A DNA stretch of 18,077 nucleotides, from assembly GCA_003551265.1 (NCBI GenBank), contig PUMG01000298.1, forward strand, positions 1-18,077. The letters are read 5' to 3'. Source of the DNA: Halovenus sp. Lineage in GTDB: Archaea; Halobacteriota; Halobacteria; Halobacteriales; Haloarculaceae. Position numbers and translations under genes: made by a program. Each line of letters starts with the position of its first letter. The stretch's first letter is position 1. Under the pieces are notes generated by a model, which did no database searches, was not told the DNA's origin, and was given only the letters and a program-made list of their open reading frames with translations. This document shows positions 8,829-18,077 of the stretch, piece by piece.

Positions 8829-8891
8829 ATGTCGAATCCCGACACAGCACTCACGAGTGTGCCAGCGGGAGAAGACGACCTCCAGACATGA
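8829..8891 (+). CDS. 20-codon leader ORF overlapping the binding-protein start
   Basis: ATG at 8829 is followed by 19 sense codons and a TGA at 8889-8891; the product starts MSNPDTALTS and ends EDDLQT. The TGA shares its first two bases with the ATG of the next gene (ATGA at 8888-8891). The TATA box at 8799-8809 would place the transcript start at this ATG, so ribosomes on a leaderless mRNA should translate this ORF first and reach the binding-protein gene by termination-reinitiation. No good Shine-Dalgarno site precedes 8888, which is consistent with coupling. It has no signal peptide or motif, and the peptide may matter only as a translational device. It is too short for coding statistics to decide. 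Confidence 0.5.
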   Translation: MSNPDTALTSVPAGEDDLQT

Positions 8892-10999
8892 CTCCAAAAC
8901 AGACCGACCGAACGGACGCAAGCAAGTTGAACCGCCGCCGCCTCCTGCAGGGGATTGCGGCTACTGGTGCCGTGACGACCGCCGCTGGTTGTCTCGGTGA
9001 CGATGATGACGCTGACGACGAACCAGTTGACGACGGTGACGACGACCCAGACCCAGGCGTGGACGACACGGGCGACGACGACCCAGGGATGGTTGACGAT
9101 GATGATGACGATGAGCCAACGGACACCACCGGCATCGTCGAGGGTGGCCGCCTCGAATTCGCTATCGAGCGGCCGAACATCGACGACTACGACCAGGCCG
9201 AGAGTTCGCTGGCCGACGACTCGATGGTTTTCGGTGTCGTCTACGACGGCCTGCAGGCATCCAACCCAGCAGGTGAGTACTTCAACTGGATGGCCGAAGA
9301 GTACGAAGTCACGGACGCACAGGAAGTTTCTTTCCCGGACGACTACACGGACTACATGGGCGAGTACGAGATTGTCGACGCTTCGGGTGACTTCCCGGCG
9401 TTCGACCTCGAGTGGCCCAACATCCTCCTTCCCGGTGCGTACCACCCAGAGGACATGGCTGCGTACGGTGAAGGTGAACTCGCCGAGGGCGACACCTTCC
9501 GTATTCTGACTCGAGAGGAGGCCGCAGACGCCGTCGAAGACGGCGTCTACGGCGTGAAAGCCGAAGGCCGTCTCCACGAGGGTATCGAGTTCCACAACGG
9601 GGACTCGTGTACTGCAGGCGACATCGTCGGTTCCTACGACCGCCTCGCAGGCAGTGCGAACGAAGGTCAGCAGTTCGACAGCTTCATCCACGCAGAAGCG
9701 CCGAACGGTGACGACGGACTCGAGTTCGCGCTGTACGGTCCGGAGCCGGACGCGATTGCGGAAGTCTCGCTCCCACCGTTCCAGATCTATCCGGAAGTCC
9801 ACCACGACATCCAGCCGGGTGACCTCGAGCCGCGCGATGGTGGCGAGGTGCCCATCGGAACTGGTCCCTACGAGATAGCCGAGTTCGATGCTGGCAGTCA
9901 GTTGCTGCTCCGGCGCACTGACAACTACTGGCTCGAGAACGTTGGACTCGAAAACAAGGAGTGGTGGGACGGCGACGACGACTTCCCGGAGGCTCCCGTC
10001 ATCGATGAGATCAACATCCGGTTCGTACCGGAAGAGGGAACGCGAACTGCGAGTCTGCTGGCAGGGGAAGTTGACCTGTCGTACCAGCTTGGAGCGGGTG
10101 ACCGGACGGCCTTCGACGAAGACCCTGACTACGACGTGGTTGCTGCCATCTCCACTGGATTCAAGTTCATGCAGTTCCCGATGAACTCTGAAGAGGGTGA
10201 CCTCCAGCACGAGGGCGTTCGCAAGGCCGTTGCAAACCTGATTCCGCGGAATACGATTGTCGAAATCGTCGCGGAGGGCTGGGCCGCACCAGCACTCGCG
10301 CCGATTCCGGAGCCTGCAGCTGGTCTCGGAACGAACATGTCCTACGAAGAGTTCGAACAGGCCGACTTCGCCAACCCTGCAGACCCGGACATCGAAGCCG
10401 CAGAGCAGTACATCGAGGAGAGCCCAGTTGAGCCACCGGTTCCGTTCATCATCCGGACGAACGCAGACGACGGTGAGCGTCAGGACAAGATGCAACTGGC
10501 CGTCGACGAACTCAACGCCAGCGGACTGTTCGAAGCCTCGCTGGAAACGCCAGCAGACATCGGTGACTGGACAGGTGACCTCTACGCCCCCGATTCGACG
10601 GACAACTACGCCGCGGACAACGCGGTGGCTGTCATCGGTCTCGCCTCCGGGTTCGACCCGGACGGCTACAACCGGGCGATTAACCACCCCGACAACCACA
10701 ACATCTGCTGTAACTTCTTCCACCCGAGTGGGACGTTCGACTGGATCGACGACTACGACGCAACCCGCTTCGGGACCGAAGTTGCCGAGGACCCACAGCT
10801 CCGGCGTGACCGCTTCGACGATGTCTGGCCACAGATCGCCGACGATGTCGGAAACACGCTCGTCGATTACAGTCTCGAAACGGCTGTTGCTGGCCCTGCC
10901 CTCAACGGCTACGCGGCCTACCCCGACCGCCGTGGGTTCTTGAGCTACAGCCTGTACGCGCCGTACGACGATGTCGTTGCCTGGATAGACCGCGACTAA
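8888..10999 (+). CDS. Peptide-type ABC transporter solute-binding lipoprotein (SBP family 5)
   Basis: The 703-residue protein is the extracytoplasmic receptor of the importer encoded downstream. A Tat signal (Arg16-Arg17-Arg18-Leu-Leu) and lipobox TAAGC (Cys35) anchor it to the outer face of the membrane. Residues ~37-80 are an Asp-dominated flexible linker. The mature part shows the family 5 pattern: GRLEFAI at the start, the EGIEFHNGDSCTAGDIVGSYDRL block, IGTGPYEIAEF, and VDLSYQL. These proteins bind di- and oligopeptides and sometimes nickel, heme or sugars, so the ligand is not fixed. It is about 100 residues longer than typical bacterial DppA/OppA, explained by the linker and an insertion at about residues 150-220. 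It shares an ATGA overlap with a leader ORF. A TATA-like and T-rich stretch follows, separating it from the permease genes. Confidence 0.9.
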   Translation: MTPKQTDRTDASKLNRRRLLQGIAATGAVTTAAGCLGDDDDADDEPVDDGDDDPDPGVDDTGDDDPGMVDDDDDDEPTDTTGIVEGGRLEFAIERPNIDDYDQAESSLADDSMVFGVVYDGLQASNPAGEYFNWMAEEYEVTDAQEVSFPDDYTDYMGEYEIVDASGDFPAFDLEWPNILLPGAYHPEDMAAYGEGELAEGDTFRILTREEAADAVEDGVYGVKAEGRLHEGIEFHNGDSCTAGDIVGSYDRLAGSANEGQQFDSFIHAEAPNGDDGLEFALYGPEPDAIAEVSLPPFQIYPEVHHDIQPGDLEPRDGGEVPIGTGPYEIAEFDAGSQLLLRRTDNYWLENVGLENKEWWDGDDDFPEAPVIDEINIRFVPEEGTRTASLLAGEVDLSYQLGAGDRTAFDEDPDYDVVAAISTGFKFMQFPMNSEEGDLQHEGVRKAVANLIPRNTIVEIVAEGWAAPALAPIPEPAAGLGTNMSYEEFEQADFANPADPDIEAAEQYIEESPVEPPVPFIIRTNADDGERQDKMQLAVDELNASGLFEASLETPADIGDWTGDLYAPDSTDNYAADNAVAVIGLASGFDPDGYNRAINHPDNHNICCNFFHPSGTFDWIDDYDATRFGTEVAEDPQLRRDRFDDVWPQIADDVGNTLVDYSLETAVAGPALNGYAAYPDRRGFLSYSLYAPYDDVVAWIDRD

Positions 11000-11016
11000 G
11001 CCGCACCCAGACCGAT

Positions 11017-11045
11017 AGTTTTAGGTCATTCTATCTGTTTTCTTC
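11017..11045 (+). promoter_or_regulatory. Internal promoter (and possible U-tract terminator) before the permease genes
   Basis: AGTTTTAGG (11017-11025) is centred about 30 nt before the ATG at 11051, giving a leaderless start for the permease gene. The same gap holds T-rich CTGTTTTCTTCG (11035-11046). Partial termination after the binding protein plus a separate weaker promoter would give the usual excess of binding protein over membrane parts. The two readings of the T-rich DNA are not exclusive. Confidence 0.42.
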
Positions 11046-11050
11046 GTTCA

Positions 11051-12007
11051 ATGAGCCTCCGGCGCTACATCATACGCCGAATTCTGGTTTCGATTCCGGT
11101 ACTGTTTGGGGTGTCAGTCATCACGTTCGGGCTGGTGCACCTCACACCCGGTGATATCGTCGACCTGATGATTGGGCAGAACCCCGACTTACAACCGGGT
11201 GAAGCAGAACGTCTCCGTCGGGAGTTCGGTCTCGACCAGCCGGTGTATGTTCAGTACTTCGACTGGATAACAAACGCCTTACAGGGTGACCTCGGTCCGT
11301 CGTTCTCACAGGGTCCCGAGACGAGCACACTGCTCGTGAGCCGCCTGCCAGAGACGATCGCCCTCGGACTGTTCGGCTGGGTGTTCGCGATGGTCATCGC
11401 GATTCCAGGTGGCATCTACGCCGCGATTCGCCGCGGTCGCCTCGGTGACGACGTCAGCCGCTTCGTCGCGCTGGCAGGCATCTCCATTCCGAACTTCTGG
11501 CTCGGTCTGATGCTGATCGCCATCTTCGCTGCTCGCTTCGGCTGGTTCCCGGTACTCGACCCACAGACTGACCTCCTCTCGCGAGAGATGCTCTGGTGGT
11601 TGATACTCCCAGGTATTGCCGTCGGAACGGCGTCGTCGGCGAGTCTGATGCGAATCATGCGAACGACGATGGCCGAGGAGTTGAACAAGGAGTACGTGAC
11701 GGCTGCACGCGCGAAGGGACTCCCAGAGCGGACGATTATTCTCAAACACGTCCTGCGCAACTCGCTCATCTCGGTGGTGACTGTCGCCGCGTTCATCACC
11801 GCAGGCATCGTCTCCGGGTCGGTCGTTATCGAAGTTGTTTTCGGCTGGCCGGGTCTCGGACAGCTGCTCATTGACGTGATACACATGCGAGATGTCAACG
11901 TCATTATGGCAATCACACTGTTCGTCGGAGTCGCTATCGTCATTGCAAACCTGTTCGCCGACATCGTGTACGCACTCCTCGACCCGCGCATCAGAGACGA
12001 TTACTGA
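11051..12007 (+). CDS. Peptide-type ABC transporter permease, DppB/OppB family
   Basis: The 318-residue permease begins MSLRRYIIRRILVSIPVLFG, the characteristic amphipathic start and first membrane helix of DppB/OppB proteins, followed by a long external segment with RREFGLDQPVYVQY (57-70). About five further helices follow (around 103-125, 136-161, 180-200, 240-262, 283-310). The cytoplasmic EAA coupling loop is EYVTAARAKGLPERTI (residues 214-229), which docks on the ATPase subunits. It forms the translocation channel with the permease encoded next. It starts after its own TATA-like box and ends 17 nt before the next start codon. Length and motifs are normal for the family. Confidence 0.92.
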   Translation: MSLRRYIIRRILVSIPVLFGVSVITFGLVHLTPGDIVDLMIGQNPDLQPGEAERLRREFGLDQPVYVQYFDWITNALQGDLGPSFSQGPETSTLLVSRLPETIALGLFGWVFAMVIAIPGGIYAAIRRGRLGDDVSRFVALAGISIPNFWLGLMLIAIFAARFGWFPVLDPQTDLLSREMLWWLILPGIAVGTASSASLMRIMRTTMAEELNKEYVTAARAKGLPERTIILKHVLRNSLISVVTVAAFITAGIVSGSVVIEVVFGWPGLGQLLIDVIHMRDVNVIMAITLFVGVAIVIANLFADIVYALLDPRIRDDY

Positions 12008-12024
12008 ACCATACACTACTAACC

Positions 12025-13047
12025 ATGTCAACAGAACGAGGACAAATTCAGATAAAGGGGTTCCACGCCGAGACCGTTGAGGACCGCGAAGGGCTCTCGG
12101 AGTGGACGGACGAAAAGGACACAGAGATACCGAGCAGGTGGGTGCTCATCGGTCGACAGCTCGTTCGGGACCGTCTCGCACTCATCGGTGCGCTGTTCGT
12201 CGCGTTCATGCTGTTCTGGGCGCTTTTTTCGCGTCCGCTCTCGGTGATGGGGACGACGATTCAGCCGTTCGAGGCCGTGCCGTACGACCCGACACGGACG
12301 GGAGTCGGTGACCGGTACGAATCTCCGTCGCTGGCGCATCCGTTCGGAACGGACCGTCTGGGACGTGACCTGTTCTCCCGGGTCATGTACGGGACGCGTT
12401 TCAGCGTCACCATCGGGATTATCGTGACGGCCATTGCGGCGAGTTTTGGCGTCGTTTACGGCGGTGTCTCGGGTTACTTCGGTGGGCGAATCGACGACGT
12501 CCTCATGCGCATCGTCGACATGGTGTTCGCGTTCCCGGGCCTCGTGCTCGCGCTGGTCATCGTCTCGATGCTCGGCCGCGGTTACTGGCAACTGGTGGCA
12601 GCGTTCACGCTGTTCGGATGGGCAGGATACGCCCGTCTCATACGGGGTGAGATACTGAAGGTCAAACAGAACGAGTACGTACTCGCGGCGAAAGCGCTTG
12701 GAGCACGTGACCGAAAGGTGCTGTTCCGTCACATCGTTCCGAATGCGATTGCGCCGGTTATCGTCCAGGCAACACTCGCCATCGGTGGTGTCGTCATCGG
12801 GGTTGCCGCGCTCGGGTTCCTCGGCGTCGGATTCGCACCAGGGACGCCTGAGTGGGGAACCATTCTCGACGCCGAGAAGGGAACGGTCGTCGCCGCTGGT
12901 GACGAGTGGCGCTGGTGGGCCACAGTGTTCCCTGGACTCATGATATTCATCTTCGTGATGGCGATGAACATGATCGGTGACGCCGTCAACGACGCGCTGG
13001 ACGCACAGAACGAAACCAACGTGGACAACATGGGGCCCCAAGGATGA
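12025..13047 (+). CDS. Peptide-type ABC transporter permease, DppC/OppC family
   Basis: The 340-residue second permease has a hydrophilic cytoplasmic N-terminus of about 40 residues, then the first helix (LALIGALFVAFMLFWALF) and the DppC hallmark HPFGTDRLGRDLFSR (105-119). The EAA loop is EYVLAAKALGARDRKV (217-232). The segment GVGFAPGTPEWGTIL near 268-282 and the long final helix are also typical. It pairs with the upstream permease in the membrane. Its stop codon overlaps the next gene's start (ATGA, 13044-13047), so translation is coupled to the first ATPase. No Shine-Dalgarno match was seen before its own ATG; the 17-nt gap from the upstream stop suggests reinitiation. Confidence 0.92.
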   Translation: MSTERGQIQIKGFHAETVEDREGLSEWTDEKDTEIPSRWVLIGRQLVRDRLALIGALFVAFMLFWALFSRPLSVMGTTIQPFEAVPYDPTRTGVGDRYESPSLAHPFGTDRLGRDLFSRVMYGTRFSVTIGIIVTAIAASFGVVYGGVSGYFGGRIDDVLMRIVDMVFAFPGLVLALVIVSMLGRGYWQLVAAFTLFGWAGYARLIRGEILKVKQNEYVLAAKALGARDRKVLFRHIVPNAIAPVIVQATLAIGGVVIGVAALGFLGVGFAPGTPEWGTILDAEKGTVVAAGDEWRWWATVFPGLMIFIFVMAMNMIGDAVNDALDAQNETNVDNMGPQG

Positions 13048-14105
13048 CGCTACTGGAAGTAAACAACCTGACCGTCCGATTCTACACAGCAGAGGGTGTG
13101 GTGACCGCTGTCGACGACCTGTCGTTCACCATCGACCGTGGTGAGAAGTTCGGCATCGTCGGTGAGAGCGGTGCTGGAAAGAGTGTGAGTGCGCTATCGG
13201 TTCTCCGCCTGATAGAGAATCCCGGTCGAATCGAGAGTGGCGAGATTCTCCTCGACGGTGAGAACCTGCTCGAAATGAGTGATAAGGAGATTCGCAAGGT
13301 CCGTGGAAACCGGGTTTCGATGATCTTCCAGGACGCACAGACTGCCCTCAACCCGGTGTACACCGTCGGTGAGCAGATATCCGAGCCGATTCGTCACCAC
13401 CTCGATTACAGCGAATCGGAGGCGAAAGAGCGAGCGATCGAACTGCTCGACACCGTAGGTATTCCTGACCCACAGACACGGTATTCGGATTATCCACACG
13501 AGTTCTCAGGCGGGATGCAACAGCGTGCTGTCATCGCGATGGCGCTGTCGTGTGACCCAGACTTGCTCATCGCCGACGAACCGACAACTGCGCTGGACGT
13601 GATGACGGAGGCGAAGATTCTCAACGAACTGGACAGGCTTGCAGAGGAGTTCGATACTGCAGTCCAGTTGATCACACACGACCTGGGCGTCATCGCTGAA
13701 GTGTGTGACCACGTGATGGTGATGTATGCTGGCCAGCCTGTCGAGACGGCGTCGGTCGACGATCTGTTCTACGATCCGAAACACCCGTACACGGTCGGTC
13801 TCATGGCGTCGATTCCACGAATCGGCGCTGGTGACACACGCCTCCAGACTATCCCAGGAGTGATGCCTGACCTCATCGACGTGCCCACTGGCTGTACGTT
13901 CCACCCACGGTGTCCCTACGCCGAGGATGTCTGCACACAGAAAGAGCCAGGGCTCGTCGACCCGGCGACTGGCACAGAAGTGGGTGCAGACGCGGACCGG
14001 GGTGCGAGTTGTCTCGCCTACACGGGTGACCTCGCTAACGACCTCACGTTCGACGTGACAGTCGGAGACGCCGGCCAGTCTGTCGGGGGTGAGTCAGATG
14101 ACTGA
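13044..14105 (+). CDS. Peptide-type ABC transporter ATPase, DppD/OppD family
   Basis: The 353-residue cytoplasmic ATPase has Walker A GESGAGKS (40-47, Lys46), Q-loop Gln96, signature FSGGM (154-158), Walker B LLIADE (174-179, catalytic Glu179) and H-loop His212. The C-terminal oligopeptide-transporter extension carries the cysteine cluster [15 protein letters not shown] (Cys284, Cys290, Cys297) with a later Cys323. In related DppD proteins such clusters have been proposed or shown to bind an Fe-S cluster or metal. It forms a heterodimer with the second ATPase. The start overlaps the permease stop, and its 3' end overlaps the next gene by 8 nt if that gene starts at ATG 14098. All residues needed for ATP hydrolysis are present. 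Confidence 0.93.
14085..14092 (+). promoter_or_regulatory. Shine-Dalgarno site deciding the DppF-type start
   Basis: GGGGGTGA matches the archaeal Shine-Dalgarno consensus GGAGGTGA at seven of eight bases and sits 5 nt before ATG 14098. It therefore favours ATG 14098 over the in-frame GTG at 14089, which lies inside the site. Confidence 0.6.
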
Positions 14106-15471
14106 GCGCGACCAGCCGATTCTCGAGGTTCGGAACCTGAGCAAGTACTACGAGATGGGTGGCAGTTTTGTCGACAGCCTGCTGGGACGCAAACAGGAGG
14201 TCAAAGCAGTCGAAAGCGTCGACTTCGAGCTGTACAAGGGCGAGACGCTCGGCGTTGTCGGTGAGAGTGGGTGCGGGAAGACAACGCTCGGGCGCTCGCT
14301 GTTGCGTCTCATCGAACCGACCGACGGCTCCATCATCTACCGTCAGGAGCAAGAGGACGGGACGAGAGAGGAGATTGAACTGACAGACCTTTCGAGTTCT
14401 GCACTCCGTGGGCTTCGCAGAGACCTGCAGTACATCTTCCAGGACCCGTTCGCGAGCCTGAACCCTCGTATGACGGTCGGAGACATCGTCGGTGAACCGC
14501 TCGACATTCACAACCTCGCCTCTGGCGAGGAACGAAACGAACGAGTTCGCGAGCTGCTCGAGATCGTCGGGCTGAGCCCGAGTCACGCCTATCGTTACCC
14601 ACACGAGTTCTCCGGGGGCCAGCGCCAGCGTATCGGGATTGCTCGTGCGCTCGCTGTCGACCCAGAGATAATCGTCTGTGACGAACCCGTGAGCGCACTC
14701 GACGTGAGCGTGCAGGCACAGATTCTGAACCTCTTAGAGGACCTGCAGGACGAGTTCGACCTCTCGTACATCTTCATCGCCCACGACCTGAGCGTCGTCG
14801 AGCACATCTCCGACCGGGTTGCCGTGATGTACCTCGGCGAAATTGCTGAAGCGGCGCCCTCCGAGCGACTGTTCGCCTCGCCGAAACATCCGTACACGGA
14901 GGCCCTGCTGTCGGTGATTCCTGAACCGGACCCGAACTGGGTCGGGAACAAGATTCTGCTCGAAGGGGATGTCCCCTCTGCGCTCACTCCTCCTGACGGC
15001 TGTCGATTCCACACCCGATGTCATCGAATTATTCCGCCTGAAGAGTACGACATAGACCAGGATGCGTGGGAATCGCTCCGGAACCTCAAACTCCGTGTTC
15101 CGGACGCGTCGTCTGTGCCGGACCTCATCACGTTCGGCCGCAAGGGAGAACTCGTCGAGGACGAAGCAATCGAAGAACTCTCTCGTCTCGACGAGATACT
15201 CCGGTCTGCGTTCGAGATTCCCTCTCCGCTCTCTGACCCGACGGCTGAAGACCACTTGAGCGAGGTTGTTGAGTTACTCCACGGCGAGGGGCTGGACGCG
15301 GCGGGAGAGACACTCGATGAGTTGTTCGTCTCACCGTGTGAGACGGTCAGCCCCGAACTCATCGAGACAGAGCGCTTGCATCAGGTGTCCTGTCTCCTGT
15401 ACGACGACGAGTACCGAAGTGGCGGACTTGAAGTGCCACAGACACAGTCAGACGCCGTCGCCGACGACTGA
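14098..15471 (+). CDS. Peptide-type ABC transporter ATPase, DppF/OppF family, with extended C-terminal region
   Basis: The 457-residue ATPase has Walker A GESGCGKT (55-62, Lys61), Q-loop Gln115, signature FSGGQ (171-175), Walker B IIVCDE (191-196, Glu196) and H-loop His229. It partners the upstream ATPase to power the importer. After the usual GCRFHTRC motif (Cys302, Cys308) comes about 100 residues that bacterial DppF lacks: acidic, helical, with SLRNLKLRV and [18 protein letters not shown]. The final cysteines Cys414 and Cys432 follow. The extension splits the normal C-terminal cysteine cluster. Similar long C-termini occur in other haloarchaeal peptide transporters as far as I recall, so this is a lineage trait rather than damage. 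The gene ends the operon; a 26-bp repeat copy lies 12 nt after the stop. Confidence 0.92.
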
Positions 15472-16244: not shown

Positions 16245-16817
16245 TCAGGCTGTGACCGAGTCTGCGAAGTTCTGGTTTTCGGTGGTGAACTCCATGAACC
16301 GACGCTCACATGCTTCACAGTGTAACGTCAGCACGCGTTTTTCACCGCAACAGGAGACGACCGGCTCGTCACCGTAGACGACCGTGCCATCACAGAACAG
16401 ACAGGCATCCTGGAACGTCCGCAGTGACTGTGCGATTCGGTAGCGCTGTCGTGGCGGCACGTCGTCCCAGTCCTCGCGCCGCTCGCGCAGTATCCGGTCG
16501 ACCGCGATGTCGAACCGGAGGGCCGCCTCGCTCGGCCAGTTTCTGATTGTGTGGATTATCTTGTACGCCGGATACGGCCGCTCCTGTTCTTCGACGTCGT
16601 CGAGATCCACACCGAACAGCGTCGCCAGGTCAGTGTCGTCGACGCCCTCGCCTTCGACCTCCTCGACATAGGCTCGAAGCGCTGCTTCGAACTCGGAGGT
16701 GAGCTGGAGGTCTTCGTCTCCCTCTGTTGGTTCGATAACGTCGCTGTCGAGCAGATACGCCTCGGGGTCGACCGAGTTCTGTCTCCGGTAGCGAATCCGG
16801 TCTTTGATGTTCGTCAT
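16245..16817 (-). CDS. Conserved protein with C-terminal zinc-ribbon-like motif, function unknown
   Basis: The 190-residue protein starts MTNIKDRIRYRRQNSVD and is acidic and helical for its first ~135 residues. The C-terminus has CLFC (Cys139, Cys142), a CC pair (Cys156-157) and HCEAC (Cys167, Cys170), the C-x2-C...C-x2-C spacing of a zinc ribbon. That suggests nucleic-acid or protein binding, perhaps as a regulator, but no helix-turn-helix is obvious. It has no signal peptide or membrane segment. It converges on the 15670 gene and faces away from the truncated zinc-type operon to its right. The upstream TATA-like elements are weak or unusually placed (TTATAA near 16925-16930 would imply an ~80-nt leader). 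I do not recognise the family. Confidence 0.72.
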   Translation of the reverse strand: MTNIKDRIRYRRQNSVDPEAYLLDSDVIEPTEGDEDLQLTSEFEAALRAYVEEVEGEGVDDTDLATLFGVDLDDVEEQERPYPAYKIIHTIRNWPSEAALRFDIAVDRILRERREDWDDVPPRQRYRIAQSLRTFQDACLFCDGTVVYGDEPVVSCCGEKRVLTLHCEACERRFMEFTTENQNFADSVTA

Positions 16818-16924: not shown

Positions 16925-17011
16925 TTATAACAGAGGGTGTGAAACAAACGTCCCGTGAAGACCCCCACCGACGATGACACACTCGAACGGCCCGGACTCA
17001 CTCTCTGCCAT
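16925..17011 (-). pseudogene. N-terminal remnant of a Rossmann-fold FAD/NAD(P)-binding protein
   Basis: An ATG (17009-17011) opens 28 codons beginning MAESESGPFE, then CVIVGGGLHGTFV, and stops at TAA 16925-16927. The strand-turn-helix CVIVGGGLHGT is the dinucleotide-binding GxGxxG start of flavoproteins of the lysine/ornithine monooxygenase-like FAD/NAD(P)-binding group. A complete one needs hundreds of residues, so this is a fragment. After the GLHGT block the sequence (VSHPLL-stop) no longer looks like the expected helix, and neither downstream frame resumes the family, which points to deletion rather than a single frameshift. It begins only 3 nt after the S14-like stop codon, so the intact gene was the last member of the same minus-strand operon. 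A functional 28-residue peptide is possible but less likely. Confidence 0.55.
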
Positions 17012-17014
17012 CTC

Positions 17015-17167
17015 TCAGTCGTACTTCTTGAAGCCGATGTTACGTGCTTTCTCTCGGAAGGACTGTCGACAGAGCCAGATGTCGTACGTGCCGACCAGAC
17101 CCTGCTTGCGGCCGGTGTCGGGACACTGACGGAGTGTCTCTCCTCGTCTGGATTCGTCCTCGGTCAT
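17015..17167 (-). CDS. Ribosomal protein S14 (uS14) paralog lacking two zinc-ribbon cysteines
   Basis: The 50-residue protein ends with an unmistakable small-type S14 module: [19 protein letters not shown] and then [14 protein letters not shown]14 sits in the head of the small subunit; the zinc form carries CxxC...CxxC. Here those positions read Cys15-Pro-Asp-Thr18 and Cys33-Arg-Gln-Ser36, so the second and fourth ligands are Thr and Ser and normal four-Cys zinc binding is impossible. It is far from any ribosomal protein operon and instead shares an ATGA overlap (17164-17167) with a HEAT-like gene and lies two genes after a COG0523 GTPase. This matches bacterial zinc-independent S14 copies used under zinc shortage. 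Whether the organism's main S14 has four cysteines cannot be seen here; if it also lacks them, this is merely a second copy. Confidence 0.85.
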
Positions 17168-17421
17168 ACGACCTCCTCCGCTCGTCGACGAAGCGACGGG
17201 TCGACCCCGCGGTTCTCAGCCAGTGTTTCGAGCTGTTCGGTCGCACGCAGGGTGACGAGCGCTTCGAGCGCCTGTCGTCGGAACTCCCCGCCGAGACCAC
17301 CCATCTCAACGAGAATCGACAGGTTCGTCCGGTCACCTGTCTCTGCCAGCCGGTCGATTGCCTCCTGGCGCTGTTGGCGCGATACGTTTTTCTTGACTGC
17401 AGTCTGGAATGTTGTTGACAT
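17164..17421 (-). CDS. Small HEAT-like helical repeat protein
   Basis: The 85-residue protein starts [20 protein letters not shown]. Two or so helical pairs follow: [32 protein letters not shown], then [13 protein letters not shown] and LRRRAEEVV. The alternating helix pattern with 'RRQAL.AL' and 'LRRRAEE' resembles HEAT/PBS-lyase-like repeats, usually protein-protein interaction scaffolds. There are no cysteines and only few histidines, so it is not itself an obvious zinc carrier. A strong Shine-Dalgarno site (17428-17434) precedes the ATG at 17419-17421, and its stop overlaps the S14-like start. The context suggests an accessory factor of the GTPase or of the alternative S14, such as an adaptor or assembly chaperone; that is inference only. 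Confidence 0.78.
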
Positions 17422-17427
17422 CTGTTC

Positions 17428-17434
17428 TCACCTC
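17428..17434 (-). promoter_or_regulatory. Strong Shine-Dalgarno site for the HEAT-like gene
   Basis: On the minus strand GAGGTGA lies 6 nt before the ATG at 17421, a perfect seven-base match to the archaeal anti-Shine-Dalgarno. This is unusual in a window where most first genes look leaderless and shows that the gene is an internal cistron of a longer mRNA. Confidence 0.7.
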
Positions 17435-17435
17435 G

Positions 17436-18077
17436 TTAGTCCGCAATGCCGACCTCTTCGGCACCGTCGTCAGCTTCGGTTGGCTCCTGGTCGTCCTCGA
17501 ACTCGAACGTGGGAAACCGGTCCTCGTACGTGTTCCAGTCTTCTTCCATCTCCTCGTCGGTGAGCAGACAGTCTGCGAGTGTCGAGTTGACGGCGTCGTG
17601 GTCCATCTCGCGACCGATGAGAACTAGCTGCGTGCCGCGGTCGCCCCACTGGTCGTCCCACACCTCTTCGAGCTGGGGATAGGCTTCGAACTGGGCCTCG
17701 CGCTCTTCGGGTGACAGTGTTGCAATCCACTGCCCGCCCGGGGCGATGCGAATGGACTGCCCAGCGACGTTGAGCGCCAGTGCCAGCTCTTCTCGACCAG
17801 CCAGCCAGAAGTGACCCTTCGAGCGGAGGACGCTGTCGGGGAACGAATCGAGCGCGTCGGCGAAACGTTCGGGGTGGAACGGTCGCCGGGCTGCAAAGAC
17901 GAACGAAGTGACGCCGTGTTCCTCCTCGGCGGACTGGTGTGGTTCTTTGAGTTCCTGTATCCAGCCTGCGGACTGGCTCGATTCCTCGAAATCGAAGCGC
18001 TCCGTCTCGAGAATGTCGTCCGGGTCGACCTCCCCGTGTTCGGTCCGAATAATCGTCGCTCGCGGCTGGAGACGCTC
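17436..18077 (-). CDS. COG0523/CobW family GTPase (G3E metallochaperone), C-terminal part; 5' end outside window
   Basis: The frame is open from the window edge (18077) to TAA at 17436-17438, giving 213 residues. They match the C-terminal CobW domain and linker of COG0523 GTPases: GVTSFVFAARRPFHPERF, then LRSKGHFWLAGREELAL, GGQW, and GDRGTQLVLIGREMDHDAV followed by LADCLLTDEE. The N-terminal GTP-binding P-loop half and the usual CxCC metal motif lie outside. COG0523 proteins deliver or allocate metals, often zinc, to client enzymes using GTP. The acidic tail (FEFEDDQEPTEADD) is a haloarchaeal adaptation. It is 14 nt upstream of a HEAT-like gene and two genes from a Cys-depleted S14 paralog, which favours a zinc-linked subgroup over cobalamin synthesis. 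Any promoter and regulator site would be beyond the window. Confidence 0.88.
   Translation of the reverse strand, partial: ERLQPRATIIRTEHGEVDPDDILETERFDFEESSQSAGWIQELKEPHQSAEEEHGVTSFVFAARRPFHPERFADALDSFPDSVLRSKGHFWLAGREELALALNVAGQSIRIAPGGQWIATLSPEEREAQFEAYPQLEEVWDDQWGDRGTQLVLIGREMDHDAVNSTLADCLLTDEEMEEDWNTYEDRFPTFEFEDDQEPTEADDGAEEVGIAD

Follow-up and report, generated by a model that had tools for sequence, protein, structure and literature searches.

A probable haloarchaeal zinc-limitation operon with a variant ribosomal protein S14 and a control element shared with zinc importer genes

Zinc-sparing remodelling of the ribosome is a textbook response of bacteria to zinc shortage, and the bacterial Zur regulon, for example that of Bacillus subtilis, combines COG0523 GTPases (YciC/ZagA, ZigA) with a zinc-free S14 protein (RpsN2/YhzA). 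Whether archaea possess a counterpart of this response is the question raised by a contig of Halovenus sp. (PUMG01000298.1, here C172), which is 18,077 bases long and is referred to as the window. Its last 1.15 kb carries four minus-strand reading frames, encoding the C-terminal half of a COG0523 GTPase, a HEAT-like protein, an S14-like protein (S14v) and a peptide of only 28 codons. An earlier reading of the sequence alone had proposed an archaeal zinc response from these frames, and our analysis supports this proposal by a control element shared with the zinc importer genes znuA and znuC, by a conserved neighbourhood and by a ZigA-like N-terminal half of the GTPase. The operon is real, conserved and zinc-linked, and it is an archaeal variant of a known bacterial strategy; that the locus serves as a haloarchaeal zinc-limitation operon is highly probable in our judgement.

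The four frames lie on the minus strand with the spacing described from the sequence alone. The C-terminal 213 residues of the COG0523 (G3E) GTPase (17436..18077; CobW_C, E 1e-25, over the Pfam cut-off) run off the contig end and are followed, after a gap of 14 nucleotides (nt; 17422-17435), by the gene of the HEAT-like alpha solenoid of 85 amino acids (17164..17421), which overlaps the gene of the uS14 paralog S14v (17015..17167; Ribosomal_S14, E 1.1e-8, over cut-off) in an ATGA at 17164-17167. A gap of 3 nt (17012-17014) separates S14v from the 28-codon frame (16925..17011), which reads MAESESGPFECVIVGGGLHGTFVSHPLL*. The operon is not wholly contained in the window; its start is located on another contig of the same assembly, C370 (further contigs named below are C174, C69 and C91). 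A cobW search of this genome (G000; 2.9 Mb, 380 contigs, 88% complete) detected GTPase residues 1-207 on the minus strand of C370 (C370:1-621; E 2e-47), running off base 1. The ends of both contigs form a perfect 20-bp palindrome (10 + 10; window 18068-18077 and C370:1-10) inside the GTPase gene, and the two frames abut as ...DEATLSAVEETL + ERLQPRATIIRTEHG... where relatives read DEATLTEIEDTLEILQPRAEIIRTTHG, with zero residues missing. Because of the palindromic ends and of frames that abut as in the relatives, the operon very probably continues from C172 onto C370, and the break at the palindrome centre is likely an assembly artefact. In 12 of the 19 fetched loci holding both parts of the GTPase, the tblastn matches of the N- and C-terminal part meet with 0 bases between them. 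Divergent from the GTPase gene, C370 carries an intact FAD/NAD(P) gene on the plus strand (end at 1938; NAD_binding_9, E 2e-15), followed by a frame which by eye resembles an IS200/605 OrfB transposase.

A conserved element upstream of the GTPase gene had been anticipated, and it was found as an AT-rich block in relatives that is also common to znuA and znuC of the own genome. In the class-wide set of 292 haloarchaeal genomes (genomes are given G-numbers, loci fetched from them L-numbers), the form ATAATAACTNNTATTA has 26 exact matches in 25 genomes, compared with 3 for the reversed pattern. In 23 cases the site precedes a COG0523 start on its own strand by 21-32 nt; the other three lie beside a divergent COG0523 pair (L137), before an apparently broken GTPase start (L141) and at a position with no such gene (L136). 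The description of the element as TAATA-N5-TATTA was rejected as too narrow, fitting the GTPase promoters and not znuA, while GTTAWTAA-N14-ATAATAA fits both. The znu genes of the own genome were recognized by profile (ZnuA, E 8.3e-44; ABC-3, E 1.5e-52), and the promoters of znuA and znuC share one layout, with the GTTATTAA block 22 nt before ATAATAA. With at most one mismatch allowed, RWTAWTAA-N14-ATAATAA occurs at three sites in G000, all of them exact, namely at znuA, at znuC and in the GTPase//FAD intergenic region (reversed pattern, 1).

The same association was observed beyond this genome. Across eight genomes, the 19 exact sites comprise 9 at COG0523 genes (one of them truncated), 5 at znuA, 1 at znuC and 1 at FAD, besides 1 at a lipoprotein gene that precedes a ZnuA-like gene by 0.9 kb, 1 at a small frame and 1 with no evident gene. 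Among the 20 sites with a single mismatch, 11 were fetched; they include a GTPase gene, a znuA gene, the FAD-S14v unit of G052 and NikR-adjoining GTPase pairs of G046 and G254, the rest standing at other genes or none. Class-wide, RTTAWTAA-N14-ATAATAAY gave 117 exact matches in 88 of the 292 genomes and the reversed pattern a single one. Each of the 117 was examined. With a gene start required in the interval from -60 to +260 nt, counted in both directions, the 116 distinct sites were distributed over znuA (79), COG0523 (17), FAD (4) and znuC (2), with 14 left unassigned by the script. The site in the own GTPase//FAD region, with AATAATAA as its first block, fits the looser pattern only and is thus outside this census. 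Inspection of the 14 by eye placed two between znuA and znuC (L245, L246), two about 0.9 kb upstream of ZnuA-like genes (L188, L267), and one before a truncated GTPase gene (L167). Another (L269) falls within the cluster of S14v, FeoB and FAD genes in G247, five (L198, L199, L200, L225, L230) adjoin a substrate-binding lipoprotein gene that recurs, and the last three (L240, L172, L189) are found with a membrane protein gene, a small frame or no evident gene. A control element in common with the zinc importer, as expected of a zinc-limitation regulon, is therefore present in the own genome as well as in the class-wide census.

Element-like blocks were also seen upstream of S14v units that are detached from the GTPase (G052, FAD-S14v; G182 and G248, HEAT-S14v). 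An upstream block of at least 25 bits is present in 6 of 20 S14v loci (G052, G182, G248, G141, G160, G260), where chance would give 0.05-0.14 each per 2 kb, and this lends partial support to a place of S14v in the regulon. As a separate observation, at five sites (locus base ~1500-1770) 3-4 nt separate the znu element from the beginning of a lipoprotein gene with a VAYVPIYPNMQH stretch; the product is a possible further regulon member, perhaps binding a metal complex.

Conservation of the neighbourhood in other haloarchaea, on which the proposal depended, was evident. S14v was counted in genomes with two S14 matches at E <= 1e-10 to a profile of S14v sequences, which gave 34 of 292; G180, with a weak second match in one search only, was excluded. 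The HEAT-like protein (E <= 1e-4) is encoded in 62 of 292 genomes, in detail in 33 of the 34 with S14v versus 29 of the 258 others (Fisher p 3e-25, uncorrected for relatedness). For 24 of these 33, the HEAT and S14v genes are no more than 5 kb apart. Of 20 loci retrieved by their HEAT matches, 19 have the GTPase gene next to the HEAT gene (exception L056) and 17 an FAD gene in the 12-kb stretch. Around S14v, 21 of 32 copies have a COG0523 gene no farther than 2 kb away, and 8 share their retrieved stretch of 8-14 kb with a gene for ZnuA or ZnuB; ZnuC as a query was unspecific, matching any ABC ATPase, and was left out of these tallies.

Two arrangements recur. One is FAD divergent from GTPase-(small frame)-HEAT-S14v, to which the own locus corresponds minus the small frame, presumably a DUF7511 protein in the relatives; the other is PyrRedox3-S14v-FeoB-like divergent from GTPase-HEAT, often with FAD and znuABC genes in addition. 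Nearly all of the carriers of the HEAT gene that have a name belong to Natrialbaceae-type genera (30 loci), a group from which the search profile itself was built, and many of them come from soda lakes. Two further proteins were noted at these loci. A FeoB-like protein (FeoB_N and Gate) is encoded divergently from or near COG0523 genes with the same element (L095:4425-6143, L063, L070, L169) and is a candidate additional metal importer, judged by its domains. A small protein with C2H2-like Cys and His pairs repeatedly adjoins the operon (L041:5310-5462 and homologs, 12 of 42 clustered loci).

The assignment of the GTPase to COG0523 was confirmed by the cobW and CobW_C domains named above and by two motifs of the N-terminal half, GMLGAGKTT and NGCICC (within NGCICCELRGD), which we take to be the GxxxxGKT P-loop and the CxCC metal motif of this family. 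ZigA is the top NCBIfam match of both halves with 218.9 bits (N-half) and 181.6 bits (C-half), whereas CobW (TIGR02475) reaches 109.2 bits on the N-half and is unlisted for the C-half at E <= 0.01; the halves were scored apart, and the scores lie below the equivalog cut-offs of 600 bits (ZigA, NF038288) and 332 bits (CobW). By these half-protein profile scores, the N-half lies nearer to the zinc-linked side, as the sequence-only reading required. YjiA proteins are the sole solved structures related in sequence to the N-half at E <= 1e-5.

S14v passes the uS14 profiles (PF00253, 35.1 bits with a cut-off of 27; NF004424, 69.4 bits with a cut-off of 54) and is thus an S14 paralog as proposed, but it is not free of cysteine. 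Zinc-binding (C+) uS14 has two CxxC knuckles, which read CPDT and CRQS in S14v: Cys1 and Cys3 are retained, Cys2 is replaced by Thr (C-PD-T) and Cys4 by Ser (C-RQ-S). The own genome additionally codes for a four-Cys S14 (C174:7009-7191), flanked by frames which by eye are L5-like and S8/L6-like. In an alignment of S14v from several families, both changes are present in 11 of 11 rows and 26 of 65 columns are invariant. In each of the 32 copies that were read, which cover the 34 genomes except G000 and G182, Thr or Ser stands at the second ligand position and Ser or Ala at the fourth. The copies of G160 and G260 (L091, L152) have lost Cys3 too, so that three of the four zinc cysteines are gone, and G062 (94.3 bits) and G260 (87.9 bits) score within the canonical S14 range, yet their sequences show the Cys changes. 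Among the solved structures listed as matches, the best one (9o17) has all four Cys, while the uS14 of PDB 9axt, which we take to be a fission yeast ribosome with presumably this sole copy, has C-x2-T and RQSFRE at the zinc-ligand positions and also lacks Cys3. Since Thr and Ser occupy these positions in the uS14 of 9axt, a protein of this kind is compatible with a working ribosome.

The HEAT-like label is tentative. An AlphaFold2 model shows six helices with a mean pLDDT of 92.7, and Foldseek placed alphaRep proteins, which are designed HEAT-like repeats, first (E 0.087); on the other side, no Foldseek match reached E <= 0.001 and the HEAT_2 profile scored 18.2 bits (E 0.0031) versus a Pfam cut-off of 27.7. 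Its repeated adjacency to the GTPase gene makes it a putative GTPase partner. The 28-codon frame had been read as a remnant of an FAD/NAD(P) gene, which is right for the window: it matches N-termini of the NAD_binding_9 family in neighbouring loci (blastp-short, best E 3.5e-7 against 565 predicted proteins) and, judged by this similarity, is the relict of a second gene copy, the intact one nonetheless being retained on C370. Among solved structures, the FAD protein has only weak and partial matches, namely cyclohexanone monooxygenases and AhpF (E 3e-4 to 8.5e-3), and therefore no chemistry is proposed for it.

Concerning the regulator, a Fur-family Zur was rejected as controller, as no protein exceeded the PF01475 cut-off in eight genomes (G000, with no match at 88% completeness, and seven relatives); matches below the cut-off occurred in G064 (22.6 bits) and G033 (21.6 bits), and 12 of 14 control genomes were over it. 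The metal-responsive regulator gene that had been suggested beside the operon was not seen there in the own genome, but NikR-like genes adjoin COG0523 pairs in some relatives (L099, L101, L186, L187, L052). Co-occurrence of NikR is uninformative because the gene is near-universal in the class (291 of 292 genomes), and it was discarded as an easy answer; what favours NikR is this adjacency in few loci and a weak dyad. In the 200 nt upstream of the NikR-adjoining pairs, the best element matches cover, as raw counts, 9-12 of 14 positions. Over 21 sites, the axis GTTAWTA-N16-TAATAAY is 42% complementary over 21 pairs, versus a mean of 30% (standard deviation 5.9) for all axes, with two other axes of shorter span equalling or exceeding this value, so the dyad symmetry is no more than suggestive. 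NikR would be suited to an inverted repeat of this kind, whose half-sites are roughly two helical turns apart. We tentatively suggest, as one possibility and not as the favoured outcome, a class-wide haloarchaeal zinc regulon under a non-Fur regulator, plausibly a zinc-sensing ribbon-helix-helix protein of the NikR family acting on GTTAWTA-N16-TAATAAY, which in a patchy set of lineages includes a zinc-sparing switch of the ribosome to S14v and a GTPase-HEAT pair for zinc delivery.

Several observations weigh against the reading as a zinc-limitation operon. In eight genomes, the pattern with at most one mismatch has 39 matches compared to 13 reversed, so that single-mismatch sites are partly chance, and the own-genome count may be low given the fragmentary assembly. 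Upstream of S14v, 14 of 20 loci score below the threshold, with nothing of note in G062, G099, G272 and G104, and genomes with the second arrangement (G082, G114, G199, G211, G225, G247, G256) show only a weaker block at the GTPase promoter. G114 has S14v without HEAT, the S14v copies of G033 and G141 stand without any tested neighbour, and those of G062, G099, G160 and G272 have an unspecific ABC ATPase as sole neighbour. Finally, S14v retains two cysteines and may keep some metal binding.

Four other explanations were considered. The element could be a core promoter (TATA/BRE) and imply no common regulation, for its distance from start codons is about 25-31 nt and its position overlaps that expected for TATA; a core promoter, however, would be spread over many genes, while the census gave 117 matches against 1 reversed, four gene families account for 102 of the 116 distinct sites (znuA alone for 79), and each of the three sites in the own genome is at znuA, znuC or GTPase//FAD. 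We regard this explanation as very improbable. It is hardly credible that the GTPase is a CobW of cobalamin synthesis placed next to S14 by chance: its domains do bear the Pfam names CobW_C and cobW, but the ZigA score of the N-half is twice that of CobW, the GTPase/S14 adjacency was found again across genera and the element is common to the operon and znuA. Moreover, Natrialba magadii, reported to lack de novo cobalamin synthesis (PMC3403918), appears to carry the operon (G032, the presumed genome of this species).

The metal itself might be manganese, iron or nickel. Membership in the ABC-3 and ZnuA families does not specify the metal, as manganese importers are among their members, and this counts against zinc, as does the position of NikR-type genes beside some COG0523 pairs. 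The importer could then be a manganese importer like the SirR targets in Halobacterium, where, according to PMC3600143, zurM, zurA and ycdH are Mn(II) uptake genes under SirR. This is nevertheless very improbable, as no metal but zinc would explain why a zinc ribosomal protein gives up zinc-ligand cysteines, the GTPase is nearest to ZigA among the NCBIfam models, and the own znu cluster encodes a 227-amino-acid protein with 29 His next to ZnuA. This protein, rich in HDHGHDDDHDHGHG stretches, is encoded directly before znuA (L164:6535-7218, on C69); it matched no Pfam family and, being near the contig end, may be part of a longer protein. A last alternative accepts a real and zinc-related regulon and takes S14v for a decaying paralog or a protein with an extra-ribosomal role rather than a ribosomal replacement. 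Two of its four Cys remain and the G160 and G260 copies lose a third, S14v is absent from 29 of the 62 genomes with the HEAT protein, and the G033 and G141 copies stand apart from the tested genes. Decay, however, would not vary the same two positions in the same few ways (T/S; S/A) in 32 of 32 copies, nor is it suggested by 26 of 65 invariant columns in 11 copies, and a uS14 with Thr and Ser at both positions sits in the solved ribosome 9axt; we consider this alternative unlikely.

Under zinc limitation, the operon would then act as follows. When zinc becomes scarce, a regulator acting on RWTAWTAA-N14-ATAATAA would free the promoters of znuA, znuCB and the divergent operon together, and znu import would go up. 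The COG0523 GTPase would allot the little zinc available to selected client proteins; its adaptor or client-recognition partner, judged by repeated adjacency, would be the small HEAT-like protein. S14v would take the place of the canonical zinc-binding uS14 in new ribosomes, by which uS14-bound zinc would be spared or recovered, and the FAD/NAD(P) protein would be a further regulon member whose copy downstream of S14v has decayed while the divergent copy is intact. The element is shared by znuA, znuC and the operon; we infer its binding and the direction of control, and the regulator and the metal are likewise putative. The exchange of S14 in the ribosome is suggested by the residue changes and by the bacterial and fungal precedents.

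In comparison with known systems, the bacterial Zur regulon likewise has a COG0523 GTPase, a zinc importer and an S14 with lost zinc Cys under one element, but the haloarchaeal case differs in its element, in the absence of a Fur-family protein over cut-off in the eight genomes, in the two Cys left in S14v and in the added HEAT-like and FAD/NAD(P) proteins. The uS14 of 9axt is similar to S14v in its C-x2-T and RQSFRE at the zinc-ligand positions and, unlike S14v of the window, is also without Cys3. For Methanosarcina, a ZntR regulon with the COG0523 gene MA4381 and znuABC was predicted (Haas et al. 2009, PMC2770081); it is similar in that an archaeal COG0523 is predicted to be co-regulated with znuABC, and differs by its DtxR/MntR-like regulator and by belonging to another archaeal class, the available part of that paper describing no ribosomal paralog, HEAT or FAD partner. 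A second haloarchaeal uS14 (rps14b, NP_1768A) is recorded in about 20% of genomes with a role listed as unclear (PMC8305020), and an S14 paralog is found on a Natrialba magadii plasmid (PMC3353972); the accessible parts of both papers give no zinc link for the paralog. Both very likely belong to the gene family of S14v, a statement made without letter-by-letter comparison. Haloarchaeal zinc import is also controlled by the sRNA s479, which acts on znuABC1 in Haloferax volcanii post-transcriptionally, with no link to S14 or COG0523 described in the available part (PMC8155600), and znuABC is induced under denitrification (PMC11218638). Among the literature matches listed, in which subscription papers are thinly covered, no title or abstract opening connected zinc regulation in haloarchaea with S14, COG0523, NikR or a znu operator. 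The bacterial Zur combination, the Methanosarcina COG0523/znuABC prediction and the unexplained rps14b were thus known, whereas the operon, its control element and the explanation of rps14b by zinc are new as far as checked, an earlier description of the znu element being possible (Leyn and Rodionov 2015).

Outside these subjects, a 190-amino-acid frame directly downstream of the operon (window 16245-16817, minus strand) has C-terminal Cys pairs (CLFC, CC, CEAC) resembling a zinc ribbon and gave 0 Pfam matches at E <= 1. By eye, window 8888-15471 (plus strand) holds what looks like a peptide ABC transporter operon, with frames for a binding protein, two permeases and two ATPases, and C91 of the own genome (L002 / L161) carries frames resembling the hydrogenase maturation proteins HypE, HypA, HypB and HypF.

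Taken as a whole, the operon and the element that it shares with znuABC provide a concrete and testable archaeal counterpart of zinc-sparing in the ribosome and suggest that archaea, like bacteria, may re-tool their ribosomes at zinc shortage. They define a widespread control element of haloarchaeal zinc importers and could explain why haloarchaea have an S14 paralog whose listed role is unclear. They also point to a small HEAT-like protein as the likely partner of a metallochaperone from COG0523, a family with mostly unknown clients. If the reading as a class-wide regulon under a non-Fur, plausibly NikR-family regulator is true, archaea would have their first demonstrated case of a ribosome remodelled in dependence on zinc.

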